DNA of 64,000 nt, taken from Magnolia sinica (Eukaryota > Streptophyta > Magnoliopsida > Magnoliales > Magnoliaceae). The notes beneath the pieces are model-generated. The model made no database searches and was not told the origin of the DNA. It worked only from the letters and a program-made list of their open reading frames with translations. The DNA is taken from positions 83,418,862 through 83,482,861 of the forward strand of contig NC_080584.1 of NCBI RefSeq assembly GCF_029962835.1, in the 5' to 3' direction. The translations under genes were made by a program, and so were the position numbers. Shown in pieces: positions 1,546-57,675 of this stretch (positions are counted from its first letter, which is position 1; each line of letters starts with the position of its first letter).

Positions 1546-3951
1546 TGTAACATCCTGGATTTTCACTGTTTTGGATTTTCAAAATTCCTTAAAAAAAATT
1601 TTAAAAAATTTAATTAACTTATAATATTACTTATTAGCCATTAGCACTCAATGTTAGTATACAGGGGTGGTACCAGAAAAGAACCGCACCAGTCCGATTA
1701 ATCAGCCGTAAGAAGCCAATAAATCCGCCCGATCACTTGAACATCAGATATAGTGTAACGTCCCACCCAACTAGAACAGTGTCCTGGAGCGTCCACGTAG
1801 GATTTGCCACAGGACCGTTCGTTTAAGCCATGCATAGTGAGGTATCACAAATAAATTAGACCAAGATTAACTCAATTGAATAGACCAGACGAGCCTTGAT
1901 AGAACCTGGTGCGGGCCTCCAAGCCAGATGGCCGTTTACACTTAGCGACAGCCCGTGCGGTCTACACTGCGACATGGGAAGGTCAGAAAATTATAAAAAT
2001 TTAAGGGAGCATAGATCTCACTGGGCTTGGGGACCATTGCGGACCATGAACCCCGTAGACACCCAGAAGTGGAATCTGGCACTTGCCAGATGCGCCCCAC
2101 CAATGCCAAAATTAGAATCTGACACGTGTAAATAAAATAAAATGTAAGACATTTCAGCTGTCAGATTTCTTCATAATTTACGATGAGGGTCTAATGTATT
2201 TTTCTACACCCGCCCACAAAAATCTGGGTTCCGATCGTGGCGCGGTGACCGTTGATCGCGAATCAGACCCGTGCGACCAAACCCCATATCTGCTCATTCC
2301 CAAATTTTACAAGGCCCTTCATCGGACCATGGAGTACCTATCCTATAAGTTTCATGGTCGGAGGGCCACCAAAACTGCCCCGGTTATCCAAATAAGCTCT
2401 AAACCGCTCGTTGGTGGACCACTAGTTCCAAAACTATAGAATAATGTCCGTCTCATTGGGCTTGACATCCATCGCGGGAATCGGACCTGGGTACGGTCCA
2501 GAATCGCTCAACTTGAGCTAAAGGACGAGTGCATGAGAAGTGCAAATACTTTAAAGAAATGAGCTGAAACTTAAGTGAATTGGGTCGTCCCCTCTTATGC
2601 AAAGTTGGGGATTTCAGACCGTCGGTTTATGACCAAACTTCACACGTGGAGTAAGGATATTTTCTTACTCATATCCATATAGTCGTGGCCCCGATCGACC
2701 ATCGGTGACCGTTGAAAAGACTTCTAATCGTATCTGTCGATCGGCGCATCCAAATGGCGGGCCGATCATGTCCATACGTAGATCATCATTAGAGCTAACT
2801 ATCCTACGGTCTAAATCAATGTGTACACCTCATAGTGGGCCCTAGAGCTTAGAAAGACCCTCCTATAGGTCTAATATAGTGAAAACTTAGCCTTTGGGGC
2901 CATTTATGCCAAATCTGGCATTATAAAAGTGCCTCACTTGGGCACCCCCTCTCCCCATACGATTTTGCCCTAGAGGAAAGGAAGAGAGAAGAGAGAAAAG
3001 GGAGAAAGAAGAAAGGAGGAAGAGAGGAAAAGAGTGAATGTGAGCAAGGTGGACCCTAGATTGAGGTGGGGCCCAAGGAAATCAAACCCCACAACTTTCT
3101 ACCTCGTCTCCAAGAAGAAACCCTCATCCGCGACTACCATTTCATTCCGTTAATCACCTAGGTAAGATCCATCACCCATTTTTCTTGAAAACCTTATGAT
3201 GAGGAGGGGTTTACATGGGATTCTAACATCCAATGCTTTGCTTTAGGGATTCCGGCCAATCGACCCAAAATCCACACTCCTAGGTCATTTCCAAGTCTTC
3301 AACGATCCATAGGTGCGGACTATTACTCTTAGGTGACCTAACACCAATTTTAATACGAGATTAATGATTTTGATTGCTTGGATGTTATATTTGAAAGCCT
3401 AGGGAAATCCTAGGAATTGTATGTTGGTTGGAATGGTATGGATTTATATGTTTGGCTCTCTCTCATGATGTCGTTTATGTTTCTCACATGATTTGATGTA
3501 TGGATGATCATATGCTCATGCCGTGTTGATTTTTATACGTTGGTTGCTTCATATTACGTATGATTTCATTACTCTTGTGTACATGATTTCTCAACATGGA
3601 GGAAGTGTTAACTTCCTCACCAAACCACACCACACACATACACTTTATTCATGATGTTAATAGTTTGCTTGTTAGAGAAATTTGAATTGTATGTTGAGCA
3701 ACATGAGAATATGGTGTTGAATATGCTTGATGTTACTTTGGTAGTTGGCATGCTATGAGTCCCTATTCCTACCCTTGGGTTGGTCAGGAACTTGAGGAGA
3801 GACGGTAGTCCCATCGGTAGGACTACGCTATGGTTGGACTTGTGGGTTTGGGCGGGTGTGATCGGGTGGCTGCAGTTCGACTACATGGGACCTTTGTGCC
3901 CGATGCCACTCGCCTCATGCTCGCCCGACTTAGGTGGTCTAACCTACTGTT
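1546..3951 (+). mobile_element. Long LTR copy 1, truncated at its 3' end
   Basis: Starts TGTAACATCCTGG and matches the LTRs at 5192 and 17165 along its length. It has a TATA box (2922-2928), a purine-rich leader, and an intron-like GT-AG segment at 3162-3246. Similarity stops near 3951, about 1.1 kb short of the LTR 3' end, so the palindrome and acidic frame of the other copies are missing. As a pair with the LTR at 5192 it would be the 5' LTR of one decayed element, Ty3/gypsy-like by its polypurine-tract context. Confidence 0.75.
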
Positions 3952-5191
3952 AGATTCCCAAGGCTACTTATCTTGTGGTACCTTTGGTTTCGATAACCTG
4001 TAGTGTTTCCAAACCATAACTCCCATGATGAGTACATGATGTGGGCGCCTCCTCTCATGAAATGAGATCGTCCTCTGCCCAAATATCATTCAAAATTTGT
4101 GACCAAGATATGGATACCCCCACTCATTAATACTTTCACCCTTTCAAAATCTCATAATGAGGAACCTAACTTGCTTATATCCAAATGATAAACCCTCTGC
4201 CTCGAGAAGTCCCTACAAAAAAAAACAAAAAACCAATCCCTATCTATAAATTGAGAGTTTGCTTCTCTTCATTGAACCTATGCCACCATTTGCTTAGAAG
4301 TGCCAAAATCCTTTCCTTCCAATTTCGATCCCAAATTCCTTTCCTCTTTGGTTTTCTATCATCAATGATTTATTGAGCGAATTGCATGAGTAGCTCATTC
4401 TATAATCCACAGGAAATGGAAGGATGGAAACCATAGAGAAATATCTGGACAGCGTAGGTAGGCTAGAGAAAATGTCATTGCATACAATGGTAATTCATAT
4501 AAAATTTTATGCCTATAGAAACTTTTTAGGGTAATCTTTAACCATAAGTATATTGAGAGATTTATTAACCCCCAATTTGAATATAAATCGAAATGAGGAT
4601 TCTCTTAAACCAAGACCTAAAGGACAACCTTATAAATAGGAGATTTAAAATTTCCAATAATGGTCATTCCCTAAACACTCATATTGATCAGACTATGGAA
4701 TTACGGAAGTATACACCTGCGAAGCATTCGCGGCTTGACTCAATTCTCAATCCTGGGTGACTACCAATGGACTCACTGCTTTGACCGAGCAGAAGACCAG
4801 GATCCACCAGGACGAAGAAGGGATACGATGAGCCTTCTACCTTGGTCAGGTAGATGATCGACGTATCGGGTTAAAGCCCACTACAACCGTCTTTCCGTGT
4901 TGGTCTAACATTGAAAATAAATATTTCACTTTAGATAGAGGGAAGCCATCACCATAAATCTAAATCTTTTAAAAAAAATAAATAGGTAAATAAATAAATT
5001 TTAGTAAACCATCAAGGTGAAAAAGTTTTAAGGGGGGTAGATTACAATGAGCTACGATAGCGTATTTATTATATACCCTAAAACGTATATAAACACGAAA
5101 CCAACAAAACTTAAGCAAACGAACTGATAATATCTTTATTTATTACCCTTAGGCAATTTCGGGGACGAAATTATTTTTAAGGGGGGTAGAT
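3952..5191 (+). mobile_element. Internal remnant of the long-LTR element with polypurine tract
   Basis: No reading frame longer than about 60 codons. The last 30 bases read GGGGACGAAATTATTTTTAAG, then a GGGGGG run and TAGAT, ending directly at the TG of the next LTR: the usual polypurine tract and pol-end context of Ty3/gypsy elements. A second copy of the tract lies at about 5022-5045. Most of gag-pol is deleted. Confidence 0.6.
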
Positions 5192-8100
5192 TGTAACATC
5201 CTGGATTTTCACTATTTTGAATTTTCAAGATTCCTTAAAAAAATTTTAAAAAAATTTAATTAACTTATAATATTACTTATTAACCATTAGCACCCAATGT
5301 TAGTATACAGGGGTGGTACCAGAAAAGAACCGCACCAGTCCGATTAATCAGCCGTAAGAAGCCAATGAATCCGCCCGATCACTTGAACATCAGGTATAGT
5401 GCAACGTCCCGCCCAACCAGAACAGTGTCCTGGGGCGTCCATGTAGGATTTACCACAGGACCGTTCATTTAAACCACTCATAGTGAGGTATCACAAATAA
5501 ATTAGACCAAGATTAACTCAATTGAATAAACCAGACGAGTCTTGATAAAACCTGGTGCGGGCTTCCAAGCCAGATGCTTTAAAACTTTTAGGCACGCGCG
5601 TAGCTATACGGACATGGGAAGGTCGAGAAAATTATAAAAATTCAAGGGAGCATAGATCTCACGGGCTTGGGGACCATCGCGACAATGGACGTGGACACGA
5701 AGTGGAATCGCACTTAAGATGCCCACTATGCCAAAATTAAACACGTGTAAATAAAATAAAATGTAAGACATTTCAGCCGTCAGATTTCTTCATAATTTAC
5801 GATGAGGGTCTAATGTATTTTTCTACACCCGCCCACAAAAATCTGGGTCCCGATCGTGGCGCGATGACCGTTGATCGCGAATCAGACCCGTGCGACCAAA
5901 CCCCATATCTGATCATTCCCAAATTTTACAAGGCTCTTCATCGGGCCATGGAGCACCTATCCTATAAGTTTCATGGTCGGAGGGCCACCAAAACTGCCCC
6001 GGTTATCCAAATAAGCTCTAGACCGCTCGTTGGTGGACTACTAGTTCCAAAACTATAGAATAATGTCCGTCTCATTGGGCTTGACGTCCATCGCGGGAAT
6101 CGGACCTGGGTACGGTCCAGAACCGCTCAACTTGAGCTAAAGGACGAGTGCATGAGAAGTGCAAATACCTTAAAGAAATGAGCTGAAACTTAAGTGAATT
6201 GGGTCGTCCCCTCTTATGCAAAGTTGAGGATTTCAGACCGTCGGTTTGCAACCAAACTTCACACGTGGAGTAAGGATATTTCCCTACTCATATCCGTATA
6301 GTCGTGGCCCCGATCGACCATCGGTGACCGTTGAAAAGACTTCTAATCGTATCTGTCGATCGGCACATCCAAATGACGGGCCGATCATGTCCATACGTAG
6401 ATCATCATTAGGGCTAACTATCCTACGGTCTAAATCAATGTGTACACCTCATAGTGGGCCCTAGAGCTTATAAAGACCCTCCTATAGGTCTAATATAGTG
6501 AAAACCTAGCCTTTGGGGCCATTTATGCCAAATCTGGCATTATAAAAGTGCCTCACTTGGGCACCCCCTCTCCCCATACGATTTTGCCCTAGAGGAAAGG
6601 AAGAGAGAAGAGAGAAAAGGGAGAAGAAGAAAGGAGGAAGAGAGGAAAAGAGTGAATGTGAGCAAGGTGGACCCTAGATCGAGGTGGGGCCCAAGGAAAT
6701 CAAACCCCACAACTTTTTACCTCGTCTCCAAGAAGAAACCCTCATCCGCGACCACCATTTCATTCCGTTGATCGCCTAGGTAAGATCCATCACCCATTTT
6801 TCTTGAAAACCTTATGATGAGGAGGGGTTTACATGGGATTCTAACATGCAATGCTTTGCTTTAGGGATTCCAGCCAATCGACCCAAAATCCACACTCCTA
6901 GGTCATTTCCAAGTCTTCAACGATCCATAGGTGCGGACTATTACTCTTAGGTGACCTAGCACCAATTTTAATACGAGATTAATGATTTTGATTGCTTGGA
7001 TGTTATATTTGAAAGCCTAGGAAAATCCTAGGAATTGTATGTTGGTTGGAATGGTATGGATTTATATGTTTGGCTCTCTCTCATGATGTCGTTTATGTTT
7101 CTCACATGATTTGATGTATGGATGATCATATGCTCATACCGTGTTGATTTTTATACGTTAATTGCTTCATATTACGTATGATTTCATTACTCTTGTGTAC
7201 ATGATTTCTCAACATGGAGGAAGTGTTAACTTCCTCACCAAACCATACCACACACATACACTTTATTCATGATGTTAATAGTTTGCTTGTTAGAGAAATT
7301 TGAATTGTATGTTGAGCAACATGAGAACATGGTGTTGAATATGCTTGATGTTACTTTGGTAGTTGGCATGCTATGAGTCTCTATTCCTACCCTTGGGTTG
7401 GTCAGGAACTTGAGGAGAGACGGTAGTCCCATCGGTAGGACTACGCTATGGTTGGACTTGTGAGTTTGGGGGGGTGTGATCGGGTGGCTGTAGTTCGACT
7501 ACATGGGACCTTTGTACTTGATGTCACTCGCCTCATGCTCGCCCGACTCAGGTGGTCTAGCCTACTATCTGACCAACCTTGATTGTTAACCCTGTTTGCT
7601 CACACTTGTATGGAACCTGAAACACCCTACAAAAAAGCACTTGGAGGGGCCCACTTGAAATTTGGTCCCACTCGTGAGCCGGCATGGTGATGGCCTGTCC
7701 GAGTCGGCCTTATCGTACCGCACTCCCCGTAGTGACCGAGCGATCCCTTTCTCATACATCCTCATGTGCTTTGAAGTCGAGGATGCGGAACTGTTCGGAT
7801 CACGGACCGTGGTGTCCACGCATTGGGGGGTCTTGGCCTCGCAACCCGTTTAGGGCATTGATACGTGGGGTGTACCAGATTCCCCAATCGGCTGGATGAA
7901 TGGACCTAACTAATCACACGGTTAACATGATCATTGCATCGTACTAGTTAGGGTGGCGACTCGGCAGTCGAGGTCGCATTGAGGGAGTGTTAGCATTGGC
8001 GATCGTTAGATGGTGTCGCACGAGGGAGCATTGTAGTGAGGGCATGTATCATATCATGCTGCATACATGCGCATTAATAAGATTACTTAGACGTATGTGA

Positions 8101-8515
8101 TTGTCTGCTTTTCATTAAAATTATATTACAATTGATGCCTGTGATAACTTGAGGTTAATAGCACCCACTGAGTTGATCACTCACTCCCACTCTGGGACGG
8201 TGTTTTAAAACACCAACCAGACCCGTTCATAGATGCAGGTGACTCAAGGCTTAAGGAGCCTGGTGAAGTGAGCTTCGAGGAGGAGGACGAGCTGTCCTAC
8301 TTCCAGTTGATGAGCGGTTCTCTACCAGCTTGAGAGGCGGAATTGGATCACTGAACAGGGGGCTTAGTCCTATTCTTTTGGTTTTGCTATTCTTTTGAGA
8401 CTTTGTTGTGTAGCGTCTTATGCGACCCATGTATTCTTTTGGACATGTGTATATATATATATATATTTGTATTCGGTCTCTTTCATTTCAGTGGATTTGT
8501 GTGGATGTACTTCAT
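5192..8515 (+). mobile_element. Long LTR copy 2, missing its last ~120 bp
   Basis: Co-linear with copy 1 and with the complete copy at 17165-21189. TATA box 6541-6547, intron-like segment 6780-6864, 16-bp palindrome 8199-8214, then the acidic reading frame 8172-8333. It ends at about 8515, where a MULE-MITE right arm begins, and lacks the CGGGAGTCGAG...GTTACA terminus seen in the other copies. No target duplication can be read. Confidence 0.75.
8172..8333 (+). other. Conserved 53-codon acidic open frame inside the long LTR
   Basis: Open from just after an in-frame TGA to TGA at 8331-8333. The frame reads through the 16-bp palindrome (residues GVLKHQPDP) into an acidic stretch ending in EEDELSYFQLM. 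No ATG opens it; a splice acceptor-like GATGCAG lies at 8232-8238. Three other LTR copies carry the same segment: 15339-15500 minus (intact, same length), 20712-20872 (one base lost) and 36635-36769 (early stop). I do not recognise the peptide. Confidence 0.45.
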
Positions 8516-8660
8516 ATTCCTGTGGTGTGGTCCACCTGAAAATTATATGTGCCAAATTTTTGAGGTCATGTCCTAAAATGATCTGGAAAAATGGATGGAT
8601 GGCGTGGATAAGGCACATACGTTATGGTGGGCCCACTTGGATGCATGCTGGGCTGATTCA
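8516..8660. mobile_element. Right-arm fragment of the MULE-type MITE
   Basis: Shows the TGTGGTGTGGTCCACCTG, CCTAAAATGATCTGG and GGATGGATGGCGTGGATA blocks and ends ATGGTGGGCCCAC. The left arm is absent; it abuts the broken end of the long LTR. Confidence 0.6.
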
Positions 8661-14937: not shown

Positions 14938-15338
14938 CAAAAAATGATGTATGTGTTTTTATCCATATTGTTTCTCCCTTTTGGTTGCTAATTTTAAGGC
15001 ACTAGCTAATAAATGAGGCTAACCCAAAGCTTAAGGTGCACCACTGTAACGCCCTGGAAATCGGGGGTTGCGCATATGCTCAACTCACGAGCTCCCGAGA
15101 GTCACCATTAACAGATTTTATTAATATGCGTTAAATTTGTTTAAATTGCGCAGCCTGAAATTTCTGAACATGAAACATAAATACGCCAGTCTGCTGAAAT
15201 GAAAGTGGTCTGTCATATATATACGGTCCAAAATATAAATGGGCCGCACAAGGCGTTGCCCAACCAAAACAACAAAAGAATATTATGTCCAAAAAGAATA
15301 AGGCTGAGCCCATTGCCCAGCCATTCAAATCCCGCCCC

Positions 15339-15500
15339 TCAAGTGGGCGGAGAACCCTCCATCAGCTGGAAGTATGATAGCTCGTCCTCCTCGTCCAAGC
15401 TCGCCTTGCCAGGCTCCTCCAGTCCCGAGTCACCTACATCTATGAATGGGTCTGGTTGGTGTTTTAAAACACCGTCCCAGAGTGGGAGTGAGTGATCAAC
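15339..15500 (-). other. Intact 53-codon acidic frame in the antisense LTR
   Basis: Same length as the frame at 8172-8333, bounded by an in-frame TAA upstream and TGA at its end, with no indels between the two. The copies differ in 18 codons, 8 of them synonymous. Codons 37-47 (EEDELSYFQLM) differ only synonymously. No ATG at the start; an acceptor-like AG precedes GTGACTCGGG. Confidence 0.45.
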
Positions 15501-17164
15501 TTAGTGGGTGCTATTAACCTTAAGTTATCACAGACATCAATTATAATATGATCTTAATGAAAAGCAGACAATCACATACGTCTAAGTATTCTTATTAATG
15601 CGCATGTATGCAGTATGACATGATGCATGCCCTCATCACAACGCTCCCTCGAGTGACACCATCTAATGATCGCAAATGTCAACACTCCCTCAGTGCGACC
15701 TCGACTGCCGAGTCGCCACCCTAACTAGTGATATGCAATGCGATCGTGTTAGCCGAGTTATTAGTTAGGTCCATTCATCCAGCCGATTGGGGAATCTGGT
15801 ACACCCCGCGTATTAATGCCCTAATCTGGGTGCCAGGCCAAGACCCCCCAATGCGTGAGACCAAGGCCTCGCGGTTCATGATCCCGTCAGGTTCCTCATC
15901 CCCGACTTCAAGCACATGAGGAGTGCCAAGAGAAAGGGATCGCTCGCGGTCACTACGGGGAAGAGCTGTACCCCAGCGTAGGCCTACAGCTCGGACACAG
16001 TGTCCCATTCCACCATGCCCGGCTCACGAGGCTATGGACTAATTCTAAGTGGGTTATTGATGAGCTACAATAGTTGTAGGGTGTCCCAGGTTCCATACAA
16101 GTGTGAGCAAACAGGTTTAACAATCAAGGTTGGTCAGACAGTAGGCTAGACCGCACGAGTCTAGGCAAGTGCATGGCGGAACGACATCGGGTGCAAGCAA
16201 CCTATGTAGTCTAACTACTGTCGCCCACATGCACTCGTCCAAATCCATGGGTTTAGCCTCAAGGCGGTCCTACCAACGGGACCGCCTTAACTCTCCTTGT
16301 TTTCTTGACCAACCCTAGGGTTTGGACGGTGGTCCACAACATGTCAACGGACATGGTTATAAACTAGCAAAATCATCATCATGTTCTCACACCTCAACAT
16401 ATAATTCAGATTCTCCTAATAAGCAAGCTAACACAATTTATGAGCAATGGTGCATGTGTGTTGTGTGTGTTGGTGAGGAAGTTGCTCACTTCCTACAACT
16501 CATGGAAACAAATTACACAGGAATTAATAAGGCACGCATGCTATAAGGCATCATCATATGAGCAAATCCAACAAGACATCAACAAGTGATCATCAAATTT
16601 GCACCAGGTCATGTAAGAAGCAAGAACAACATCATGTGAGGAAATCAAATAAAACATACAATTCCATACCACTCTAAATAAATATAAATTCCTAGGTTTT
16701 CTCTATATTCTCTAAATGCATCAACCAAGCAATCAAAATCATTAAACTCATAATGAAATTGGTGTTAGACCACCTAGGAGTAATAGTCCGCACCTACGGT
16801 TCGTTGGAGATTCGGAAAACGCCCTACGAAAGAGGGCTTTCGGGACGATCGGCCGGAATCCCTAAAACAAGCTCTTGTATGTTAGAATTCCAAGCCAATC
16901 CCATCTTACTACATGGATTTCAAGAAGAATTGGTGAATACCTTACCTAGGCAACCCACGGGCGGTTGTTGAAGTCAAGGAGGAGAGTTTCTCCTTGTAAG
17001 AGAGGTAGGAAGTCGGAAGGGTTGACTTTCTTGGGCCCCACTTCGATCTAGGGTCCACCTTGAATCTCCCTCCCTTTCTCTCTTTCTTCCCTTCACTCTC
17101 CTTTACTCTCTTTCTCCCTTGGTGGTTGTAGGAATTGAGAGAGTGTTATGGGAGCTAGGGTTTA

Positions 17165-20100
17165 TGTAACATCCTGAATTTTCACTATTTTAGATTTCCA
17201 AAATTCCTTTAATTTTTTTTAATTTAATTAACTTATAATAATACTTATTAACCATTAGCACTCAATGTTAGTGTATGTAGGGGTGGTACCAGTAAAGAAC
17301 CACACCAATCCGATTAATTAGCTATAGAAAGCCAATGAATCCGCCCGATCACTTGAACATCAGGTATAGTGTAACGTCCCGCCCAGCCAGAACAGTGTCC
17401 TGGGGCGTCCACATAGGATTTGCCACAAGACCGTTCGTTTAAGCTACTCTTAGTGAGATATCACAAATAAATTAGACCAAGATTTGCCCAAATGATAAGG
17501 CCAGACGGGTCCTGATAGAACCTGGTGCGGGCCTCCAAGCCAGATGGCTGTTTACACCTAGCGACAGCCCATATGGGCTACATCGTGACACAGGAAGGTC
17601 AGAAAATTCTAAAAATAAAGGGAACCATAAATCTCACTGGGCTTGTGGACCATCGCGGACCATGGACCCAACGGACACCCAGAAGTGGGATCTAGCACTG
17701 ACTGAATGCACCCCATCAATGCTAGGACGAAAATCTGGCGCTTGCAAATGAAACCAAGATACCAGGCTATCCAACCATCGGATCTCTTCCACATTCATGG
17801 TAGAGGTCTAATGAATTTTCCTACACCTGTCCACCAACTCTGGGACCTGATCATGGAACGGTGACCGTCGATCACAAATTGGACCCGTACGACCAAACCC
17901 CAGATCCGACCGTCCCCAAATTTTGCATGGCTCTTCATCGGGCTATGAAGCATCTATCCTAGAAATTTCATAGACAGAGGGCCAACAGAACCACTCCAAT
18001 CACCAGAATGGACCCCTCAGGACCGTTTAAAGATCAGAACCGTTGACTCAAACCCCACAACCGTCCATCCGTTTGTTCCTAAATTTTATATGACCCCTCA
18101 TTGGGCCATAAGGCATCTACACACCAAATTTGGTGGACAAGGGGGTGCTGGGTCCGCCCCAAAGCCAATAAGAAATCCTAGGGGGGGCCATTGTGAGAAT
18201 TCATTGAAACTTAAGGCCAGGGAGCCCAAATCTAACCGACCATTTGCTAACTAATCAAGACAATCATAACTAAATTAAAGATCTAACCGGGGCAGAGTCA
18301 GATAAGGCCCGGATCTTGAATAATAGACTAAATCAACCCCATTACTCTTTTAGTCTAAAACCGACGGTTTAGAGTGATCATGACCAAATATTTACTTTCA
18401 CTAGTTATAAATAGGCCACCTTATAAATATAGTTAATCCAAACCCTGATCATTACCCACGAAAAATCTCAATACCTAATTCATTCCAAAAATGTCCTGAT
18501 TTTCCGAACAAGCTCTAGACCGCTCGTTGGTGGGCCATTAGTTTCAAAATTATAGAGTAATGTTCGTCTTACTGGGCTCGACATCCATCGCGGGAGTCAG
18601 ACTTGGGTAGTGTCTAGAACCGCTCAACTTAAGCCGAAGGACGAGTGCATGAGGAGCGCAAATACCTTAAGGAAAGGAACTGGAACTTAAGTGAATTCAG
18701 TCATCAACTCTTATGCAAAGTTGAGGATTTCGGACCGTCGGTTTGCAACCAAACTTTACACGTGGAGTAAGGATATTTCCTTGCTCATATCCGTATAGTC
18801 GTGGCCCCGATCGACCATTGGTGACCATTGAACAGATTTCTAATCATATCTATCGATCGGCGCATCCAAATGGCGGGCCGATTATATTCATACGTAGATC
18901 ATCATTAGGGCTAACTATCCTACGGTGTATATCAATATGTATACCCCATAGTGGGCCCTAGATCTTGAAAAGACCCTCCCATAGGTCTAGTATAGTAAAA
19001 ACCCAATACTTAGGGCCATTTCCACCAAATCTGGTATTATAAAAGGGCCTCATTTGGGCACCCTCTCTCCCCATACGATTTTGCCCTAGAGAAGGAAAGA
19101 GAGAAGAGAGAAAAAGGAAAAGAGAAAGAGGAGAAAGGAGGAGAAAGAGAGAGGAAGAAGAGAGTGAATGAGGGTGTTGTTGATGGTGGGGCCCAATGAA
19201 GCTCAACCTTGTACCTCCCTACCTCTTCTTCAAGGAAGAACCCTCCACCACAATCACACACTCACTCCGTTGATCGTGTAGGTAAAAGTCCTCATCCCTT
19301 TTCTTGAAAACCTCGAGTTGAGGAAGGATTTGTTGGAAACTCTAACATGTGAATGGTTGCTTTAGGGATTCCGGCCGTTCAACCCCAAAAATCCCCGCTC
19401 CTAGGTCGTTCCCAAGCCTCCAACGAATTCAAAGGTGCAGACTATTACTCTTAGGTGACCTAGCACCAATTTTAATACGAGATTAATGATTTTGATTGGT
19501 TGGATGTTATATTTGAAAGCTTAGGGAAATCCTAGGAATTGTATGTTGGTTGGAATTGTATGGATTTATATGTTTGGCTCTCTCTCTCATGATGTCGTTT
19601 ATGTTTCTCACATGATTTGATGTATGGATGATCATATGCTCATGCCGTGTTGATTTTTATACGTTGTTTGCTTCATATTACGTATGATTTCATTATTCTT
19701 GTGTACATGATTTCTCAACATGGAGGAAGTTTTAACTTCCTCACCAACCCACACCACACACATACACTTTATTCATAATGTTAATAGTTTGCTTGTTAGA
19801 GAAATTTGAATTGTATGTTGAGCAATATGAGAACATGGTGTTGAATATGCTTGATGTTACTTTGGTAGTTGGCATGCTATGAGCCCCTATTCCTATCCTT
19901 GGGTTGGTCAGGAATTTGAGAAGTGACGGTAGTCCCATCGGTTGGACTATGCTATGGCTAGACCCATGCATTTGGGCAGATGTGGGCGGGTGGCTGTAGC
20001 TCGACTACATGGGTCCTTTGTGCCCGATGTCACTCGCCTCATGCTCGCCCGACTCAGGTGGTCTAGCCTACTGCCTGACCAACCTTGATTGTTAACCCTG

Positions 20101-21189
20101 TTTGCTCACACTTGTATGGAACCTGGAACACCCTACAACCATTGTAGCTCATCAATAACCCACTTGAAATTTGGTCCACAGCCTCGTGAGCCGGGCATGG
20201 TGGAATGAGACACTATGTCCGAGCTGTCGGCCTATACTGGGGTACCGCGCCTCCCCGTAGTGACCGCGAGCGCTCCCTTTTCTCATGGCACTCCTCATGT
20301 GCTTGAAGTCGGGGATGAGGAACCCGACGGGATCACGGACCGCGAGGTCTCGGCCTCACGCATTGGGGGGTCTTGGCCTCGCAACTCGTTTAGGGCATTG
20401 ATATGTGGGGTGTACCAGATTCCCAAATCTGTTGGATGAATGGACCTAACTAATCACACGGCTAACACGATCATTGCATCACACTAGTTAGGGTGGCGAC
20501 TCGGCAGTCGAGGTCGCACTGAGGGAGTGTTGGCATTGGCGATCGTTAGATGTTGTCGCACGAGGGAGCGTTGTGGTGAGGGTATGCATCATGTCATGTT
20601 GCATACATACGCATTAATAAGACTACTTAGACATATGTGATTGTTTGCTTTTCATTAAGATCATATTAAAATTGATGCCTGTGATAACTTGAGATTAATA
20701 ACACCCAATGAGTTGATCACTCACTCCCACTCTGGGACGGTGTTTTAAAACACCAACCAGACCCGTTTATATATGCAGGTGGCTCAGGCTTGAGGAACCT
20801 GGTGAGGCGAGCTTTGAGGAGGAGGACGAGCTGTCCTACTTCCAGTTGATGGACGGTTCTCTGCCAGCTTGAGAGGCGAAATTGGATCGCTGAGCAGGGG
20901 GGCTCAGTTTTATTCCTTTTTGGACTTAATATTCTTTTGCGATTTTGTTGGGTAGCATCTTATGCGACCCATATATTCTTTTGGACATGTATATATATAT
21001 ATATATTTATATTTATATTTGTATTCAGTCTCTTCCATTTCAGTGGACTTGTGTGGATGTACTTCATGTTCCAGGAAATTTCAGGCTGCGCATTTAGATT
21101 GGATCGCATATTAATGAAATTTTGCTATAAGTGACCTGGGAACTCGGGAGTCGAGTATATGCACGACCTCCGAATTTCAGGGTGTTACA
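17165..21189 (+). mobile_element. Sense solo LTR (long LTR copy 4), complete
   Basis: 4,025 bp from TGTAACATCCTG to CAGGGTGTTACA, flanked by perfect gttta duplications (17160-17164, 21190-21194). It has no gag-pol and sits wholly inside the antisense LTR. TATA box 19038-19044, purine-rich leader 19090-19165, GT-AG segment 19282-19365, palindrome 20739-20754. The acidic frame (20712-20872) lost one base. Compared with copies 1 and 2 it has an extra ~0.5 kb near 18030-18480. Confidence 0.88.
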
Positions 21190-22251
21190 GTTTATTCCCT
21201 AGACTTGGGCCATTTGGCCTTAAGTTTCCTCAAATTCCCAAAATATCCTACTAGGACTCACTTTTAGGGTTAGTGTGGCCCTAATACTCCTTTGGACACC
21301 AAATTTGGTGGGTAAGCGCCCTGTGGCCCGATTAGGGCCCGTGTAAAATTTGGGAACAAATAGATAGACGGTTGCGGGGTTTGAGTCAACGGTTCTGATC
21401 TTTAAACTGCCTTAAGGGGTCCATTCTGGTGATTGGAGTGGTTCTGGTGGCTCTCTGGCTATGAAATTTCTAGGATAGATGCTTCATGGCCCGATGAAGG
21501 GCCATGCAAAATTTGGGTACGATCGGGTTTGGGGTTTGGTCGTACGGGTCCAATTTGTGATCGATGGTCACCGTTCCACGATCGGGTCCTAGAGTTGGTG
21601 GACCGGTGTAGGAAAGTCCATTAGACCTCCACCGTAAATATGGAAGAGATCCGATGGTTGGATAGCCTGGTATCTCGGTTTCAATTGCAAGCGCCAAATT
21701 TCGATCCCAGCATTGGTGGGGTGCATTTAGTCAGTGCCAGATCCCACTTCTGGGTGTCCACTGGGTCCGCGGTCCGCGGTGGTCCATAAACCCAGTGAGA
21801 TATATGGTTCTCTAAATTTTTAGATTTTTCTGACCTTCCCGCGTCGCGGTATAGCCCGTACGGGCTGTTGCTCAGTGTAAATGGTCATCCGGCTTGGCGG
21901 CCCGCACTTGGTCTTGTCATGGCCTGTCTGGTTTATTCAAATGGGCTAATTAACTTATGGTACCCCCACCGCGTATGTTTTAAATGATCGGTCCTGCGGA
22001 AAATCCTACGTGGACGCCCCAGGACACTGTACTGGTTGGACGGGTTGGTACAACCACACCGCATGAAAAGTAATGGTACCCACTGTCACAAAAATCATCG
22101 AATCTATTTATAAGTTACACAAACCTAAATGAAGGGAAAACACAAGTATCATAAGGATTCAGAACTTTGGCCACTCAAAGAAGTTTTCTACCATAACATT
22201 CAATTCTCTCTATTTTATGTGGTGTGATCCACTTGAGCTTTGGATCTAGGA

Positions 22252-33400: not shown

Positions 33401-34540
33401 TTCGAACGTATACTCTGCAATTTGTCTATATAGTCGAAACCTGCCCATCATAAATTCAAATCAATCAATCACTAGTATCATTGCATCGCATTACATTTTC
33501 TAAATGTAATAACTATGGTTATTTTTCAGGAATGTAACATCATGTCCAACTAGAATAGTGTCCTGAGGTGTCCACGTAGGATTTACCGTAGGACCATTCG
33601 CTAAACCGCTCGTGTGTTAGGTACCGGCAACAAATTAACCTAGATTAGCCCATTAAGGTGGACCAGTCTGGTTGGGTCCAAGTTAAGTGCGGGCTGTCAA
33701 GCCAGATAACTTGTTTACAGTTGACAACAGCTTGTGCGGGTCGTGCAGCGGCCTAGGAAGGTCAAAAAAATGTATAAATTGGGAAAACCACAGACCTCAC
33801 TGGGATTATGGTCCATCGTGGACCACTGAGTTAGTAGATGCCTAAAAATTAATTATCCACGCCGTCCCAATGGCATTTGCCAAGCGCAACTCACCCCAGC
33901 TTTGACCCAAAGGCTAGAACTTAAATCTGACACTTTTAAATGAAACTGAGATATTAGGATTTGCAGCCGTTTCGAACGTATACTCTGCAATTTGTCTATA
34001 TAGTCAAAACCTGCCCATCATAAATTCGAATCAATCAATCACTAGTATCATTGCATTACATTACATTTTCTAAACGTAATAACTACGGTTATTCTTCAGG
34101 AATGTAATATCATGTCTAACCAGAATAGTGTCCTGAGGCGTCCACGTAGGATTTGCCGCATGACCATTTGCTAAACCGCTCGTGTGTGGAGTACAACCAA
34201 CAAATTAACCTAGATTAGCCCATTAAGGTAGACCAGTCTGGTTGGGTCTGAGTCAATTGCGGGCCGTCAAGCCAGATAACCTATTTGTACTTGACAACAG
34301 CTTGTGCGGTCCGTGTAGTGGCCTAGGAAGGTCAGAAAAATGTATAAATTGGGGAAACCGCAGACCTCACTGGGCTTGTGGTCCATCATGGCCACTGACT
34401 TAGTAGATGTCTAAAAATTAATTATACACGCTGTCCCAGCGGCACTTGCCAAGCCCAACTCACCCCAGCTTTGACCCAAAGGCTAGAACTTAAATCTGGT
34501 ACTTTTAAATGAAACTGAGATATTAGGATTTATAGCCGTC
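33401..34540. repeat. 570-bp direct tandem duplication across an LTR start
   Basis: Unit 1 (33401-33970) and unit 2 (33971-about 34540) both start TTCGAACGTATACTCTGCAA. Each contains genomic flank, then the LTR start TGTAAYATCATGTC (33533 and 34103), then about 430 bp of LTR. The duplication therefore arose after the LTR inserted. Confidence 0.8.
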
Positions 34541-37092
34541 GGATCTCTTTTACATTTATGGTGAGGGCTTAAAGTATTTTTCTATGCCCGTCCACAAAAT
34601 CTGGAATCTGATCGTGTGACGGTGACCATTGATCGCAAATCAGCCTCGTACGGTAAAACCCCACATCTGTTTACCTTCAAATTTTGTACGACCCTTCATC
34701 GGGCCATGAAGCACCTCTCCTATAAATTTCATAGACAGGGGGCCATCAGAACCGCCCCAACAGCTAGAATGGCCCTCACAGGATCATTTATAGATCGAAA
34801 TCGTACGATAAAACCCCACATCCGTTCACTCCCAAAATTTGCACAACCCCATATCGGGTCATGAGACACCTACACACCTAATTTGGTGGCTAGAGGGGTG
34901 ACAGAACTACACTAAAGCCAAAAAGTGGCCCCCACAGGGCCATTGAGGAAAATTGTTGAAACTTAAGGCCAATGGGCCCAAACCTAGAAAATAAAGCCCT
35001 AAGGCTCTTTCTCTCGTACTCCCACCACAAATCCAACAACAAAAGAGAGAGAGGAGAGCCTTAAGAGGGAAGAGAGAGAGAAATTTGTGAGAGAAGAAGG
35101 GAGAGAGGTGGATCATCGTTCAAGTTGAGGCCCAAGGGAATCTGAGTCTTGCAACTCCTCCCCTCTCCCTTAAGGAAATCCTTCACCTATAACCGAAAAA
35201 ATCCTCTCCGCCGATTGGGTAGGTAAATCTCTCATTCTTTTGGAAAACCCTTATATTGAGAAGGGATTTGTATGAAATTCTAACATGTAAATGCTTTGCC
35301 TCAGGATTCCAGCCAATCGACCCCAAATTCGACACTCCTAAGTCGTTTATCAAGATTTCAAAGATCCGTAGGTGCAGACTATTACTCTTAGGTGGTCTAG
35401 CACCAATTTTAGTATGAATTGAATGATTATGAATGTGTGGGTGATGTATTTGGATAATCTAGAGAAAATCTAGGGAAGACCTCACCTTTGACCCTCTCAA
35501 TCAATATGGAATGGTTATGGAATGTTTGTTGTTTCTCACATGATTGGGTATGAATTTAATGATTGTATGTTCATGTCTTGTTCGATTCTTGTACGATGTT
35601 TCCTTATAACATGTATGATGCATTAACCCTTGTGCATTTTGTAATATGAGATATATGAAATTCTTGGCTTCCTCACTAACCCACACAACACACATGCACA
35701 TTTATTTAGTAATATTGTTAGTAGTTTACATTTATAGTAAATTCTGAATTTATATGTTTAATGCATGATTTCACGACATCACTTGTATAAGATGATATTT
35801 CCTAACTTGTTGAAGTGCTATTGAATACCATCAAATCCCTACGTTGGTCCGGAAACTGAGGTGAGAGAAGGTGGTCCCGTTGGTAGGACTATCCCAAGGC
35901 TGGATCAACGGATTTTGGCGGATGCGAATAGGCGACAGTAGTTGGACTACATGGGTCACTTGTACTCGATGTCGTCCGTCATGTACTCGCTTAAACTCGT
36001 ACGGTTTGGTCCACTTAATAACCAACTATGTTTGTTAACCCTGTCTACTCATGCCTGTATGGAACCTGGAACACCCTTCAACCATTGAAGCCCATTGATA
36101 ACCATTTGAAACCGATCTACTAACTCGAAAGCCGGGCATGGTGGAATGAGACATTGTGTCCTAGCTGTCGGCCTACGCTGAGGTGACAAGCCTCCCCGTA
36201 GTGACCGCGAGTGATCCCTCTCCTCAACACTCCTCATGTGCTCAAAGTCGAGGATGGGGAACCCAATGGGATCAAGGATCCCGGGGTCCTGGCCTCGCAC
36301 GTTGATGGGCTTTGGCCTCGCAACCAGTTGAGGGCATTGATCAGGGGGTGTACTAGTTTTTCTAATCTACTGGATGAATGGAATTAATTAAGAATTTGAT
36401 TAACACTCTCATGATCGCATCGCACTAGTAGGGTTGATAACTCGACAGTTGAGGTCGCAATGAGGGAGTGTTGGTCATACGTGATCGTTAGACGGAGTCG
36501 CTCGCGAGAGTGTTATTGCAAGGTCATACATATGCATTAACAAGACTAGTTAGAGATCTGTAAATGTATGTCTTTCATTAAATTCATAATATAATTGATA
36601 TTTGTTGTAACTTAAGATCAATAGCACCCACTGAGTTGATCACTCACTCCCACTCTGGGATGGTGTTTTAAAACACCAACCAGACTCTTCAGTAGCTATA
36701 GGTGGTGCTGAGTTTGAGGAGTCGAGCGACGCTGGCATTGACGAGGAGGATGAGATGTCCTACTTTTAGCTGGTGGGCGGCTCGCCATAGTTTTGGCAGC
36801 CTATTTTGGATCGTTGAGTGGTGGACTCAGCGCAACATTCTTTTGGACTTATCATTTTTTTGTATTTTTTTCGGGCAATGCCTTGTGCGACCCATTCATA
36901 TTTTTGGACATATATAGATATATTTTACGACTTCTATTACAATAGACTAGTTGTGTTTGTGATTCATGTTTCAAGTAATTCCATACTGCTCATTAATCAG
37001 GATTAAACACAGAATAATAAAATTGGTTATAAGTGATACCCGGGAACTCGGGAGTCGAGCGTATGCACGAACCCTAATTTTCAGGGCGTTAC
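33533..37092 (+). mobile_element. Long LTR copy 5 (5' LTR with adjoining primer-binding site)
   Basis: Starts TGTAACATCATGTCC and ends CAGGGCGTTACA. Without the 570-bp duplication it is about 2.99 kb, matching the antisense solo LTR. It has an intron-like segment 35223-35304, the palindrome 36662-36677 and an acidic frame 36635-36769 that meets an early TAG within the conserved SYF segment. Unlike the solo copies it is followed by a primer-binding site. Confidence 0.8.
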
Positions 37093-37095
37093 AAG

Positions 37096-37107
37096 TTGGT
37101 ATCAGAG
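37096..37107 (+). other. Primer-binding site, tRNA-Met type
   Basis: TGGTATCAGAGC, the standard plant retrotransposon primer site complementary to initiator-type tRNA-Met, three bases after the LTR terminus at 37092. Confidence 0.85.
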
Positions 37108-39350: not shown

Positions 39351-40480
39351 GCATCCGTATGATACATAATTACCATGTAATCCATGTGATTTGAAATCAT
39401 CATGTGTTGCCAGCCTATAATTGGAATCATTGGAATTCATGCGAATGCGTTTGGCTGCCTGTATTTAGAATGCAATGGTAAATAGGTATAGAGATGACTG
39501 AGACTTATGAATTAATGGTAATTTGAATCCATGTGAAATAAAATCATATGATTTTTCATCTATTTCAAAAAATGATCTTTGTATTTGCTGAGAATTGAAT
39601 TCCAATTCACATCAATATACATTCTCCCAATTTCATGGATTGCATGGATCGCTCTGTTGAACCCCTCAAATGAGTGGCCTTTCATTGAATCACGAAATAT
39701 TAGAGAAACCTATTATTATAATCATTCTTTCGTGACATATCTGATAGTGGGATCCACAAAATGAACAGTTTAATTTGAGTTGCACATATGTGACTTACAA
39801 TAATTTCTGAATGCATGCATATGACCCATCACATTCATTCAAGAGCATCTCCCTCTCTCTCATACACGCTTGCCATTTAATTCCATGGTCCATACAAACC
39901 ACATCTAAGGGTTTTAAGACTTGTATGAGTCCGAACCAACTCGTCCGAGTCGACTCAGTTTCCGTAAGCAGATCAAGTTCTACACCACAAGTCACACTAA
40001 CGATTCACCCACCACGAGTCAGGAATCAACTCAACACCCCCAACTAAGCTAAGTCGGGACTCAACTCAACCCCACAACTAGGCCGAGTCAGGACTCGACT
40101 CAACCCTAGATGACTCGGTCCGACAAGTCTTTTCACCCTTTAATCAAATCTATTACTTACATTCCTAGCATACCTACACAATATATTTACACTAAAACAT
40201 TGAAATCATAAATTGCACCGGTCCACTTCACATAGGAACAACCTCTCTTACAAGCAGTTGTCATGTCAGGCTCAGATCACATGGTCCATGGGCCATGTCC
40301 ATGTGGACCCCACAAAAGAAAAGGGATGAATGCTGCTGTCCTCTTGAATCTGGCATTGACAATAATATCTTTTTGATCTCACATGTGCCTTGGCCACCTC
40401 ATTAATTGCACCTATTTCAATTCTCATATTCCTATGGTGAGTGTACAACCATTATTCCTTCCTTCCAAAGTAAGGAAATG

Positions 40481-41462
40481 TGATGCCAGTAATCTACATT
40501 GAAAAATATCTATCTACGGACCGCTCCAACAATTTCTATCCATTATATATTTTTCATAGAAATTGTGCGAATTATATATAAAAATATCCAATGGTATTCT
40601 GACATGAATTTATACAAGTAAGCTGTCCATGGGCTGGGCTGGTCTATTGGGCTTTTGGGCTTAGCCCACTTTAGGTAGGCTTGAGGTGGAATATTAATAC
40701 CGAGAGCTAGGGTTAGGCCTAAAATTTAAGCTTGTGTAATATATAGACCGGACTCGGGCTTCTTTAAGAACCCATCAGCTTAGATAGAGCCTCGTCTACG
40801 GAGGTTCATTAAATGTGAGGCCAGTAACCTACATTGAAAAATATCTATGGACCGCTCCGGCAATTTCTATCCATTATATATTTTTCATAGAAATTGTGCG
40901 ACTTATATATAATAATACCTAATGGTATTCTGACATGAATTTATACAAGTGAGCTGTCCATGGGTTGGGCTGGTCTATTGGGCTTTTGGGCTTAGCCCAC
41001 TTTAGGTAAGCATGAGGTGGAATATTAATACCAAGAGCTAGGGTTAAGCCTAAAATTTAAGCTTGTTTAATATATAGACTGGACTCGGGCTTCTTTAAGA
41101 ACCCGTCAGCTTGGATATAGCCTCGTCTATAGAGGTTCATTAAATGTGAGGCCAGTAACCTACATTGAAAAATATTTATCTATGGACCGCTCCGGCAAAT
41201 TCTATCCATTATATATTTTTCATAGAAATTGTGGGGCTTATATATAAAAATACCTAATGGTATTCTGACATGAATTTATACAAGTGAGTTGTCCATGGTC
41301 TGGGCTGGTCCATTGGGCTTTGGTGCTTAGCCCACTTTATGTAGGCTTGAGGTGGAATATTAATACCAAGAGCTAGGGTTAAGCCTAAAATTTAAGCTTG
41401 TTTAATATATAGACTAGACTCGGGCTTCTTTAAGAGCCTGTCAGCTCGGATAGAGCCTCGTT
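40481..41462. repeat. Three-unit tandem repeat, period about 333 bp
   Basis: Units start at 40481, 40816 and 41147 (spacings 335 and 331) with TGATGCCAGTAATCTACATT or the variant TGAGGCCAGTAACCTACATT. Each has the GGACCGCTCC, TTTTCATAGAAATTGTG and TTGGGCTTTKG/GGCTTAGCCCAC blocks. Units 2 and 3 differ from unit 1 by scattered substitutions. No coding. Confidence 0.85.
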
Positions 41463-50569: not shown

Positions 50570-51697
50570 TCATACTACTGACGCGTAGGGTATCTTCTGC
50601 ATCTCATCCACCTCTACCTTCATCTTGGGACACTGCCTGTTGCTCAATCTGAAGTGACCATCCAGTGGAGTACTGACCGGCTTCGCTGCATTCATATTGA
50701 ACTGCTGTAGGACTTTCTCAATATACCGCTCTTGTAACAGCCAAAACTTCTTGCTGCTTCTGTCACGGGTTATCTCCATTCCTATGCTTTGTTTAGCCGG
50801 GCCCAAGTCTTTCATCGCAAATGACTTGCCCAACTCCTGTTTCAGCCTTTCAATCTTCTTGACGTCTTTTCCCATGATGAGCATGTCATCAACGTATAAT
50901 AGCAGAACTAAGAAATCACCATCTGACAACTTGCGTGGAAACACACAGTGGTCCGACTCTGTTCTGTCATATCCATGCTTTAACATGAACGAGTTGAATT
51001 TTTTGTACCATTGCCTTGGAGATTGTTTCGGCTCATATAAGCTCTTCCTTAGCCTACATATCATATGCTCTTTGTCCTTGACTTCAAACCCCTCTGGTCG
51101 GTGCATGTAGATCTCTTCGTCTAGGTTACCATGAAGAAAGATAGTTTTAACTTCTAACTACTCTATCTCCAAATCTATGCTAGCCACCAACCCAAGCAAC
51201 ACCCTTATGGATGTCATCTTCACCACTGGTGAGAATATCTCCTCGAAGTCTATATATTTCCTCTGATCAAACCCTTTCACCACAAGTTTGGCCTTGAACC
51301 TTGCTTGTGAGTTCTTTTGCTCTATCTTCTTTCTGAACACCCACTTGTTGCTTAGAGCTTTCTTACTCTTAGGCAATTTCATCATATCATAGGTGTGGTT
51401 CTTATGCAAGGATTTCATCTCCTCTTGCATAGCTTTCAACCACTCCCCCTTATACTCATCGGCTAGAGCCTCAGAATAGTCTTCTGGATCTCCCCCATCA
51501 GTGAGCATAATGTACTCATACGGCGAGTACCTCTTAGACGGCTGTCTGTCCCTAGATGACCTCCTCACCTGTGGCTTAATAGGTGGATCAAGTGGGGGCT
51601 GCTCTCCCGGTCCATCTTCTGTAGGAACTCCCTCGTCCTCTACACCTTGTTGTACTCCCCCGTCATCAGGCACCACGGGAGGAGTAACCGGATCCAT
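50570..51697 (-). pseudogene. copia reverse transcriptase region
   Basis: 51158-51697 carries a Pro/Glu-rich linker (PPVVPDDGG), SSRDRQPSKRYSPYEYI and the RVT_2 start (WLKAMQEEMKSLHKN, NKWVFRKK). 50570-51106 carries SLYEPKQSPRQWYKKF, the catalytic LLLYVDDMLI and MEITRDRSSKKFWLLQ. A break at 51107-51157 separates the two frames; expected residues between are partly present in another frame. Confidence 0.85.
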
Positions 51698-51958
51698 ATC
51701 CTCTAGCTATCTTGAACTAAGCTACGTCTTTTCTAGCTTACAAATGTCTTCAATACATTAGTCTTCAAAGAAAACTACATCTATGCTCCTGACGAGCTTC
51801 TTCTTAATCAGATCCCACAATCTGTAGCTGAACTTTTCATCCCCATACCCCAAGAACACACATTGCCTGATCTTCATATCGAGCTTGGACCTCTCGTCCT
51901 TTGGTACATGAATGGATACCCAATATCCAAACACCCTAAGATGACTGTACGATGGATC

Positions 51959-52534
51959 TTATCCAATCCACACCTTCTCGGGTACTTCTCCATTCAACGG
52001 GGCTGATAGAGACCTGTTTATCAAATATACTGCCGTGTGTACTCCCCATAACGTCTTGGGCAACTTCGCATGGGATAACATGCATCTAATTCTCTCTACA
52101 ATGGTGTGATTCATTCGCTCAGCTACACTATTATGCTGGGAGGTCTTAGAAACAGTCTGTTCATGCCGTATACCTAGGTACTCACAATACTCATGAAAGT
52201 CACCGATGTATTTACCACCATTGTCAATGTGGATGCAATTCAATGATCTACCTGTCTCTCTCTCGATCTTAGCATGAAAAATTTTAAACACACCAAAGAC
52301 CTCGTCCGTAGATTTCAAAGCATAAACCCAAACCCTCCTAGATGCATCATCTATAAAAGTGACAAAATACAATGCCCCACCCAAGGTTTTTGTCCTCATA
52401 AGACCACAAACATCAGAATAAACCAAATCTAATGCATGCACTTTATTAACATCATAAGCAGATTTAACAAATGAAACTCTATGTTGTTTTCCTGATAAAC
52501 AATCAATATAGGTTTTGAGAGATATACCTATCAC
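51959..52534 (-). pseudogene. copia integrase core
   Basis: 191-codon open segment. CLSGKQHR precedes the rve core: first Asp in YSDVCG, second in IHIDNGGKYIG, Glu in HNSVAERMN, so the D,D,E triad is visible. FVTFIDDASRRVWVY and LWGVHTAVYLINRS are typical copia core motifs. The upstream zinc-finger part is out of frame. Confidence 0.85.
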
Positions 52535-52969
52535 GTCTGGAAGGAGTCACTTCTTTACTAGTACTGAAGCCCTTTTTCACTCATGTGGCCTAAGTGCCTA
52601 TGCCATATGTTAATAGCTAAATCTTCCGCTGCGTTCAACCCACCCTTGCATACAATGACACTTACCTTGTAAAGGATGCAACACTTCTTTCTTCTGGCCG
52701 TGATCAATGAACCTTTGATGAGCTTCCAGCGCCCACCAAAAAATCAACTTTCATAGTCATCATCATCCAACCTTTCCGTTGACATCAAGTTGAGACGAAG
52801 GTCTGGAATGTGCCTCATATCCCTGAGAACCAATGTGCAGCCCACATCGGTCTTCACACAAATATCACAGACCCTTACGATCTTCGATATGCCAAAATTT
52901 CTCATCTTCACGGTCCCAAAGTCACTTGACTTGTAGCTTGTGAAAAAATCCCTTCATGGAGTCGCATGA

Positions 52970-57228: not shown

Positions 57229-57637
57229 CCCTCCCACCCACCTCAGTGGATCCGGGGTCTCACCTAATCCGCTCCCTCCATTGGCCAGCCCTGATATTGA
57301 AAGGGCCATTCCCCTCTCGTTGTATATGCATCATTCATTTGGGATGACGTGGAATGGGTGTTTAGATCTGAGACGTTCATCATGTGGGCCCCGGGAATCT
57401 ATTAGGCTGGGTATATACACGTGGACATTGGTTATTCATTTCTTAGCCGTCCACTTCCCTGTGCACGTGCGACCCTCAGCATGACTTTCTGGGAAAGTAA
57501 ATACATCATCTGATGAACGGCCAGGATCTCACACGCGTGTGGGTGATTAATACCTCACGATGAGTTGCAACCTTCAAATTCCTCCTCTTTTCAAAGAGAT
57601 GGTGGTTCCGTTAACAGCCGTTAGTTTTTGTTTTTTA

Positions 57638-57640
<3 letters not shown>

Positions 57641-57673
<33 letters not shown>
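57641..57673. repeat. (TC)n tract in the PPR 5' leader
   Basis: Uninterrupted TC repeat ending two bases before the ATG at 57676. CT-rich tracts at this position are common in plant 5' leaders. Confidence 0.85.

Positions 57674-57675
<2 letters not shown>

Follow-up and report, generated by a model that had tools for sequence, protein, structure and literature searches.

LTRs are usually regarded as non-coding. Lentiviral nef, MMTV sag and foamy virus bet are protein-coding sequences carried by the 3' LTR, in its U3 region. Among retrotransposons, the plant copia element BARE1 and Drosophila copia make spliced short-GAG subgenomic mRNAs that terminate shortly past the junction, as described in excerpts of PMC3735527, and EVADE, also a plant copia element, produces a spliced short-GAG subgenomic RNA, as described in excerpts of PMC12786077. 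The introns in these accounts lie in the internal region of the element (104 nt in BARE1). The same excerpts of PMC12786077 state that plant LTR elements are generally without introns, with few exceptions, a rule that counts against the splicing reading developed here.

We analyzed a 64-kb window of the Magnolia sinica genome (by "window" we mean the whole stretch of DNA, 64,000 nucleotides) and found that one of its LTR families carries a short acidic frame, here called E3. Our data suggest that E3 is probably a genuine 3'-terminal coding exon in R of a Ty3/gypsy LTR, joined in the 3' LTR, by splicing, to sequence of the internal region. The element resembles BARE1, EVADE and copia, as excerpted, in being an LTR element for which we infer a spliced subgenomic mRNA, and differs from them in that its acceptor exon is inside the LTR. 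With nef, sag and bet it shares a coding sequence within the LTR; whereas those genes lie in U3, E3 is a single short terminal exon downstream of the TATA box and expected start (~1.7 kb downstream of the TATA), and would be present at both RNA ends. A scan of the + strand of U3, detailed below, found no coding stretch of the nef or sag type.

The element may be a Tekay/Del chromovirus, and we know of no coding exon in Tekay/Del LTRs. Literature searches by title and abstract returned no description of plant LTRs with an exon that codes for protein. The Tekay/Del chromoviruses in excerpts of PMC6317226 have the features seen here: Ty3/gypsy organization, long LTRs of the form TGTAAC...GTTACA, an iMet-type primer binding site (PBS), a polypurine tract (PPT) and protease before RT. 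In the excerpted portion of that survey of plant LTR elements, extra ORFs were counted from 250 codons up only, so that it would have been unable to see E3. In sunflower seedlings, moreover, the elements found expressed did not include Tekay, according to excerpts of PMC7730604, and transcripts may therefore prove elusive.

A Ty3/gypsy family with long LTRs

The window contains five pieces of one LTR family. LTR copy A (5192..8520, + strand) is the 3' LTR of a deleted element, since a PPT (AAGGGGGGTAGAT) precedes it, and its own end is truncated. A further truncated LTR, A2 (1546..3948, +), is 97% identical to A across 1568 bases. Copy B (15045..22052, - strand) is split, into 15045-17164 and a second part from 21190 to ~22052, by copy C (17165..21189, +), a solo LTR bounded by the 5-bp target-site duplication (TSD) GTTTA at 17160-17164 and 21190-21194; a solo LTR thus sits in a same-family LTR, in opposite orientation. 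Copy D (34103..37093, +) is a 5' LTR, followed at 37097 by a PBS (TGGTATCAGAGC). The LTR ends, TGTAAC...GTTACA, and the TSD of copy C give the TG...CA termini and short duplication of an LTR retrotransposon. A PBS with at most one mismatch follows D, where it is of iMet type, and seven other loci, and a PPT precedes A and locus L025. Before the 3' LTR, both A (window 5029-5192) and L025 have two PPT-like copies ~150 nt apart.

We identified gag-pol sequence behind one family member. The sole gag-pol locus read, L060, is decayed and begins 2.2 kb behind the PBS of the LTR at locus L004, with ~1 kb between L004 and L060 unread. It gives Pfam matches to reverse transcriptase (RVT_1, 1.3e-34) and protease (1.4e-6), with protease before RT, and has a gag-like sequence recognized by eye, without a Pfam match; the order gag, aspartic protease, RT is that of Ty3/gypsy elements. 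Because these sequences lie behind L004, the LTR family includes, or once included, members with pol. With PBS, PPT and TSD, and with protease and RT after one copy, the element belongs to the Ty3/gypsy retrotransposons. A search for Ty3/gypsy pol motifs in an earlier set of loci found none, its matches being the window's copia pieces and chance. Genome-wide, the junction of LTR end and PBS occurs at 3513 places, some of which may be from other families, versus 6827 places for a palindrome of the LTR described below, so many of the family's LTRs are probably solo, 3' or truncated copies.

Two loci contain PPR gene fragments on the - strand, at L025:8471-8719 (Pfam PPR_2, 6.7e-8) and L042:6963-7157 (9.9e-11). 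These are different pieces, upstream of the family's conserved 3' internal segment, and host-gene capture by non-autonomous members is a possible origin. Elsewhere in the window, we noted by eye a decayed copia-type pol in several frames, with integrase and an RT bearing YVDD (50570-52546, -), and a 675-codon open frame resembling a PPR protein gene (57625-59652, +). A local tandem-like duplication lies at 40476-41461, in pieces of ~190-530 bases at 91-93% identity.

Codon-level selection in the acidic frame

A preliminary description of this DNA had reported an acidic 53-codon frame inside the LTRs and proposed that it encodes a peptide reached by splicing. We found the frame open to its TGA, without indels, at 8172-8333 (+) in A and 15339-15500 (-) in B, and the two copies differ, as reported, in 18 codons, eight of them synonymously, with only synonymous differences in codons 37-47. 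Also as reported, the copy at 20712-20872 is one base short and that at 36635-36769 has a TAG at codon 45. NG86 dN/dS for codons 23-53 is 0.21-0.31 across the six pairs of window copies. On their own, these four copies are a weak case for coding; among ungapped windows matched in size, in any frame and on either strand, pN/pS is equally low in 8% for A-B, 8% for B-D and 15% for A-D, a background that includes exon-overlapping windows and in which pairs with C are unscored owing to its gap. The best-conserved block among the four is not the acidic part, which is 70-79% identical and similar to the remainder, but 8180-8219 (mean identity 99%), which contains most of a perfect 16-nt palindrome and its left flank.

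This palindrome, GGTGTTTTAAAACACC (8199..8214, +; also at 15458-15473, 20739-20754 and 36662-36677), gave us a larger sample. We searched for it in the 1.84-Gb genome containing the window and found 6827 exact places, compared with 2 for the reversed control. The 54 LTR copies analyzed are the first 50 places listed, all on contig C1, and the four window copies; they represent the start of one contig and the window, out of more than 6800 places. The 50 were chosen by the palindrome, which lies 24 nt upstream of the exon, so that the choice was independent of the exon itself, and because the palindrome was the selection criterion, they are uninformative on its conservation. With the palindrome left free and both flanks matched, C1 has 27 places below 14.5 Mb, and 19 of these carry it exactly (hand comparison). 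A 32-copy alignment was made from the 38 copies with long upstream sequence, minus six of low mutual similarity. Locus L001, which is the window, and L002-L008, chosen by similarity to A, stand outside the 54- and 32-copy analyses; L002, L004, L005 and L006 are among the 26 copies used for stops and phase in the first exon E1 (below), and L002-L007 with A form a seven-copy singleton count. The codon model had a single w (dN/dS), a FastTree tree and F3x4, with stop and gapped codons treated as missing.

Codon maximum likelihood on 8241-8330 in the 54 copies gave w 0.36 in the described frame (2ΔlnL 89 versus w = 1; 0.36-0.37 over the exon), whereas the two alternative frames gave w 1.00 and 1.72. 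Six flanking windows gave w 0.52-1.14 in the same copies, the lowest with 181 stops and 2ΔlnL 5.0. In the 32-copy alignment, 8247-8321 gave w 0.15 (2ΔlnL 141.6) with four stops in 32 x 25 codons, and the highest 2ΔlnL off E3 was 26.5, among 381 + strand windows from 6520 to the LTR end. Eighty neutral simulations gave w 0.66-1.47 and a maximum 2ΔlnL of 8.4; none of the 80 reached w <=0.148. The reverse frame over E3 scores too (w 0.28, 2ΔlnL 52.9), but with 31 stops.

In ten-codon windows the signal starts at ~8244-8253 and lasts until shortly before the stop, its core being 8271-8300 (w 0.09), and windows up to 8264 have dN/dS 0.69-1.17 in the 54 copies, save 8181-8210 (0.33, 2ΔlnL 9.4, 10 stops). 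Of all + strand windows, the one at 8241 itself has the lowest pooled pN/pS, 0.55, with a single reverse window reaching 0.54, at 8145. Diversity at the three codon positions is 0.37/0.34/0.52 in 8241-8333, 0.27/0.32/0.31 upstream and 0.39/0.45/0.41 downstream. Transversions alone give 0.13/0.12/0.28 over 8250-8321 (permutation p 0.00005), which means that the periodicity is not a product of C-to-T decay.

Judged from these substitution patterns, only the final 31 codons of the 53 are coding. Codons 1-22, which the preliminary description had counted in, are noncoding; ten-codon windows from 8172, 8181 and 8190 onward each hold 9-10 stops in the 54 copies. The proposal of an LTR-encoded peptide reached by splicing is supported with regard to protein-level selection and an acceptor-like site at the edge, and unsupported with regard to all 53 codons being coding. 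Redrawn from the acceptor to the TGA, E3 occupies 8239..8333 (+) in A, where it is acidic and ends in ...EEDELSYFQLMSGSLPA and the stop, and 15339..15433 (-) in B, where it is intact; a 1-nt deletion has cost copy C its frame (20779..20872, +), and copy D has a premature TAG at 36767-36769 (36702..36790, +).

A frame of 26-31 codons is kept in 33 of the 54 copies, including copies from subfamilies only 25-46% identical to A over the exon. The contrary outcome set beforehand, dN/dS near 1 with most frames lost, was absent. The remaining 21 copies have early stops, frameshifts or, in one (L018), an in-frame deletion only. The translations pass from an acidic stretch through [LF]-S-Y-[FL]-Q-L to a GGS-like end and the stop, and their length differences are whole codons. 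A two-ratio fit gave w 0.30 on terminal and 0.51 on internal branches (2ΔlnL 14.6), opposite to the expectation for neutral evolution after insertion; we propose that sparse sampling explains the low terminal value, the long terminal branches containing much source-lineage evolution. In the seven A-like copies, singletons (3 N/2 S) and shared differences (5 N/2 S) are too few for use.

E3 therefore shows what is expected of a protein-coding exon, a dN/dS below 1 that is specific to one frame and terminated by a stop. By a high standard of sequence evidence, 8241-8333 is very probably coding, and its codon substitutions show the element preserving the amino acids of E3 while diversifying. No Pfam family was above cut-off for E3 from four copies, a PDB profile search returned no chain, and pattern scans of viral and GTDB contigs gave no match.

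The acceptor-like site and the putative intron

The preliminary description had singled out the AG before GTGACTC as a place for splice junctions to end. We found there a splice-acceptor-like site, TGCAG/GT (8234..8240, +; the slash marks the putative junction), at the edge of the selected stretch. Where the base is present, TGYAG/GT is kept at T in 53/53 copies, at the pyrimidine in 53/53, at A in 52/52 and at G in 51/53, with AG in 50 of the 54 copies. The motif matches what we take to be the plant acceptor consensus. In copy A, two more AGs lie at most 20 nt upstream.

Upstream of the acceptor is a conserved non-coding block (8165..8222, +) made up of CTCAC, the palindrome and AACCAGAC; outside the palindrome used for selection it has low diversity in the 54 copies, and it has stops in frame. 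We read this block as a candidate branch-point/3' splice-site module, with CTCAC possibly the branch site, and a pyrimidine-rich stretch also lies upstream of E3. RNA folding of the acceptor block was no better than that of shuffles (z -0.40). Sirevirus LTRs, as described in excerpts of PMC2829016, likewise have a conserved palindrome amid diverged LTR sequence; unlike the one AT-rich palindrome by an acceptor-like site found here, theirs are repeated boxes upstream of the TATA, mostly with a CGG-CCG core.

The putative intron (6782..8238, +) runs from a donor, TAG/GTAAG, at 6782 to the acceptor at 8238. Its T content is 30.0-31.4%, versus 16.5-27.4% in the flanks, and it is T-richer than both flanks in all four window copies. 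Of 38 copies, 22 have an AG/GTAAR donor ~1.46 kb upstream, positioned at -1418 to -1506 relative to the palindrome and set in differing flanks. A TATAAAA box (6541..6547, +) stands upstream of the putative first exon, E1, and among the 16 copies having a donor and enough sequence, 12 have such a box 218-257 nt ahead of the donor. The locus thus combines a conserved acceptor at the exon edge with an upstream donor, as a spliced exon does. Splicing at 8238/8239, and with it an intron within the LTR ending at the acidic exon, are well supported as predictions from these features, and codons 1-22 are then the 3' end of the putative intron.

Partner exon, alternatives and implications

We searched for the exon that would supply the N-terminal part of the protein. 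E1 (6570..6781, +; its start estimated from the TATA box) is a purine-rich leader with no coding selection in any + strand frame (w about 1) and no conserved ATG, and E3 itself has no conserved start codon. In copy C coordinates, the U3 scan (+ strand, 20 sequences, 355 of 429 windows with enough data) found no coding stretch, with a maximum 2ΔlnL of 8.8, and 744 windows covering both strands of the E1-to-E3 interval reached 28.8 at most, in a reverse frame with 38 stops. The LTR windows scanned gave no further coding stretch, and the N-terminal part of the protein probably lies elsewhere. Since E1, U3 and the putative intron show no coding exon, and there is no conserved ATG, this part probably comes from the internal region. 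Two candidates within the LTR were rejected. A stretch with few stops at 20270-20355 of copy C gave at best w 0.40 and 2ΔlnL 25.0, which is background level, with no good donor seen; a possible middle exon, E2 (66-72 nt, TTTAG/GGATTCC...AG/GTGC), varies in length out of phase and has in-frame stops in several copies.

In the internal region, the eight PBS-bearing copies have homologous leader sequence in common, up to ~1.7 kb. These leaders held no convincing coding stretch (best 2ΔlnL 18.5; 664 of 840 windows with enough data). For a gag donor joined in phase to E3, no partner exon was identified in the one decayed gag locus read, L060. That locus has before gag an acidic coiled-coil-like ORF with RIEENQA repeats (L060:230-610), for which a genome listing gave 41 matches and 231 first-look candidates, and the piece tested had no Pfam match. 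We rejected this ORF as the partner, as its own stop ends it (by eye).

We considered whether E1 might be spliced to E3 inside the LTR, giving a ~70-residue protein with a variable or non-AUG start in E1. The donor, acceptor and TATA box are all kept, an ATG that is in frame with E3 and open to the donor occurs in three of 16 copies, and stops in E1's last 15 codons occur in 3/24 copies in the phase that continues into E3 versus 19/24 and 12/24 in the others. This contrast in openness is overstated, however, because the other-phase stops are often at inherited sites (the TAG at the donor, the TGA in GTTGATC). Five of the 16 copies have no ATG in E1's last 215 nt, and the w of about 1 in E1 extends to its anchored last 16 codons (0.97, 16 copies). 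We therefore regard joining of E1 to E3 as unlikely. Selection on RNA or DNA is quite improbable: E3 would be a purine-rich splicing enhancer or other cis element, codon-like by coincidence. The sequence just after the acceptor, GAGGAGGAGGACGAG, does resemble what we take to be a purine-rich exonic enhancer, and conservation of the upstream block is clear at the nucleotide level, but the constraint on E3 tracks codon positions even with transversions alone, is frame-specific and stops at the stop codon, and it includes TCN-TAY-TTY-CAR-YTN, which is not purine-rich.

A neutral LTR sequence that is open by chance would fit the 8-15% of windows with equally low pN/pS in the four window copies, and the 21 of 54 copies that fail to keep the frame, one of them by its in-frame deletion only; the tests on the larger copy sample contradict it, and we find this explanation hardly credible. 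That an ancestral element captured the exon from a host gene is a proposal about origin, and is compatible with a terminal coding exon. The PPR fragments inside L025 and L042 indicate that host-gene pieces can enter the family, but E3 resembles no Pfam family or PDB chain in the searches above, and subfamilies that have diverged strongly carry it at the same position, which would date any capture far back; we think such an origin very improbable.

Under the explanation we favor, a 3'-terminal coding exon in R, the intron would end at 8238 and E3 would supply an acidic C-terminal tail to an N-terminal part encoded outside the LTR and joined in phase 1. The likeliest route would be splicing of an internal-region ORF (gag or an ORF before gag) into the acceptor of the 3' LTR, and the product would be a short accessory or Gag-type protein that ends in the E3 tail and uses the LTR poly(A) site. 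In the 5' LTR, splicing to this acceptor would excise the greater part of the long leader. Such an intron would be part of R, so that reverse transcription requires unspliced full-length RNA to persist. As to the role of the tail, our guesses are a nuclear factor, Gag assembly or an activation domain.

More tentatively, and as a possibility that we hold to be short of probable, a whole plant Ty3/gypsy lineage may carry this R-region exon in both LTRs, with splicing from an internal ORF into the 3' LTR giving an acidic-tailed accessory protein, and with thousands of solo LTRs scattering acceptor and exon through the genome, available for splicing from host genes upstream. E3 predicts a specific splice junction that can be checked in long-read RNA data. 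LTRs are annotated and masked as non-coding, and E3 would mean that part of the plant Ty3/gypsy protein repertoire has been overlooked. Solo LTRs would gain a means of adding exons to host transcripts and, if the reading is true, the family would hold a plant equivalent of the accessory genes that retroviruses carry in their LTRs.
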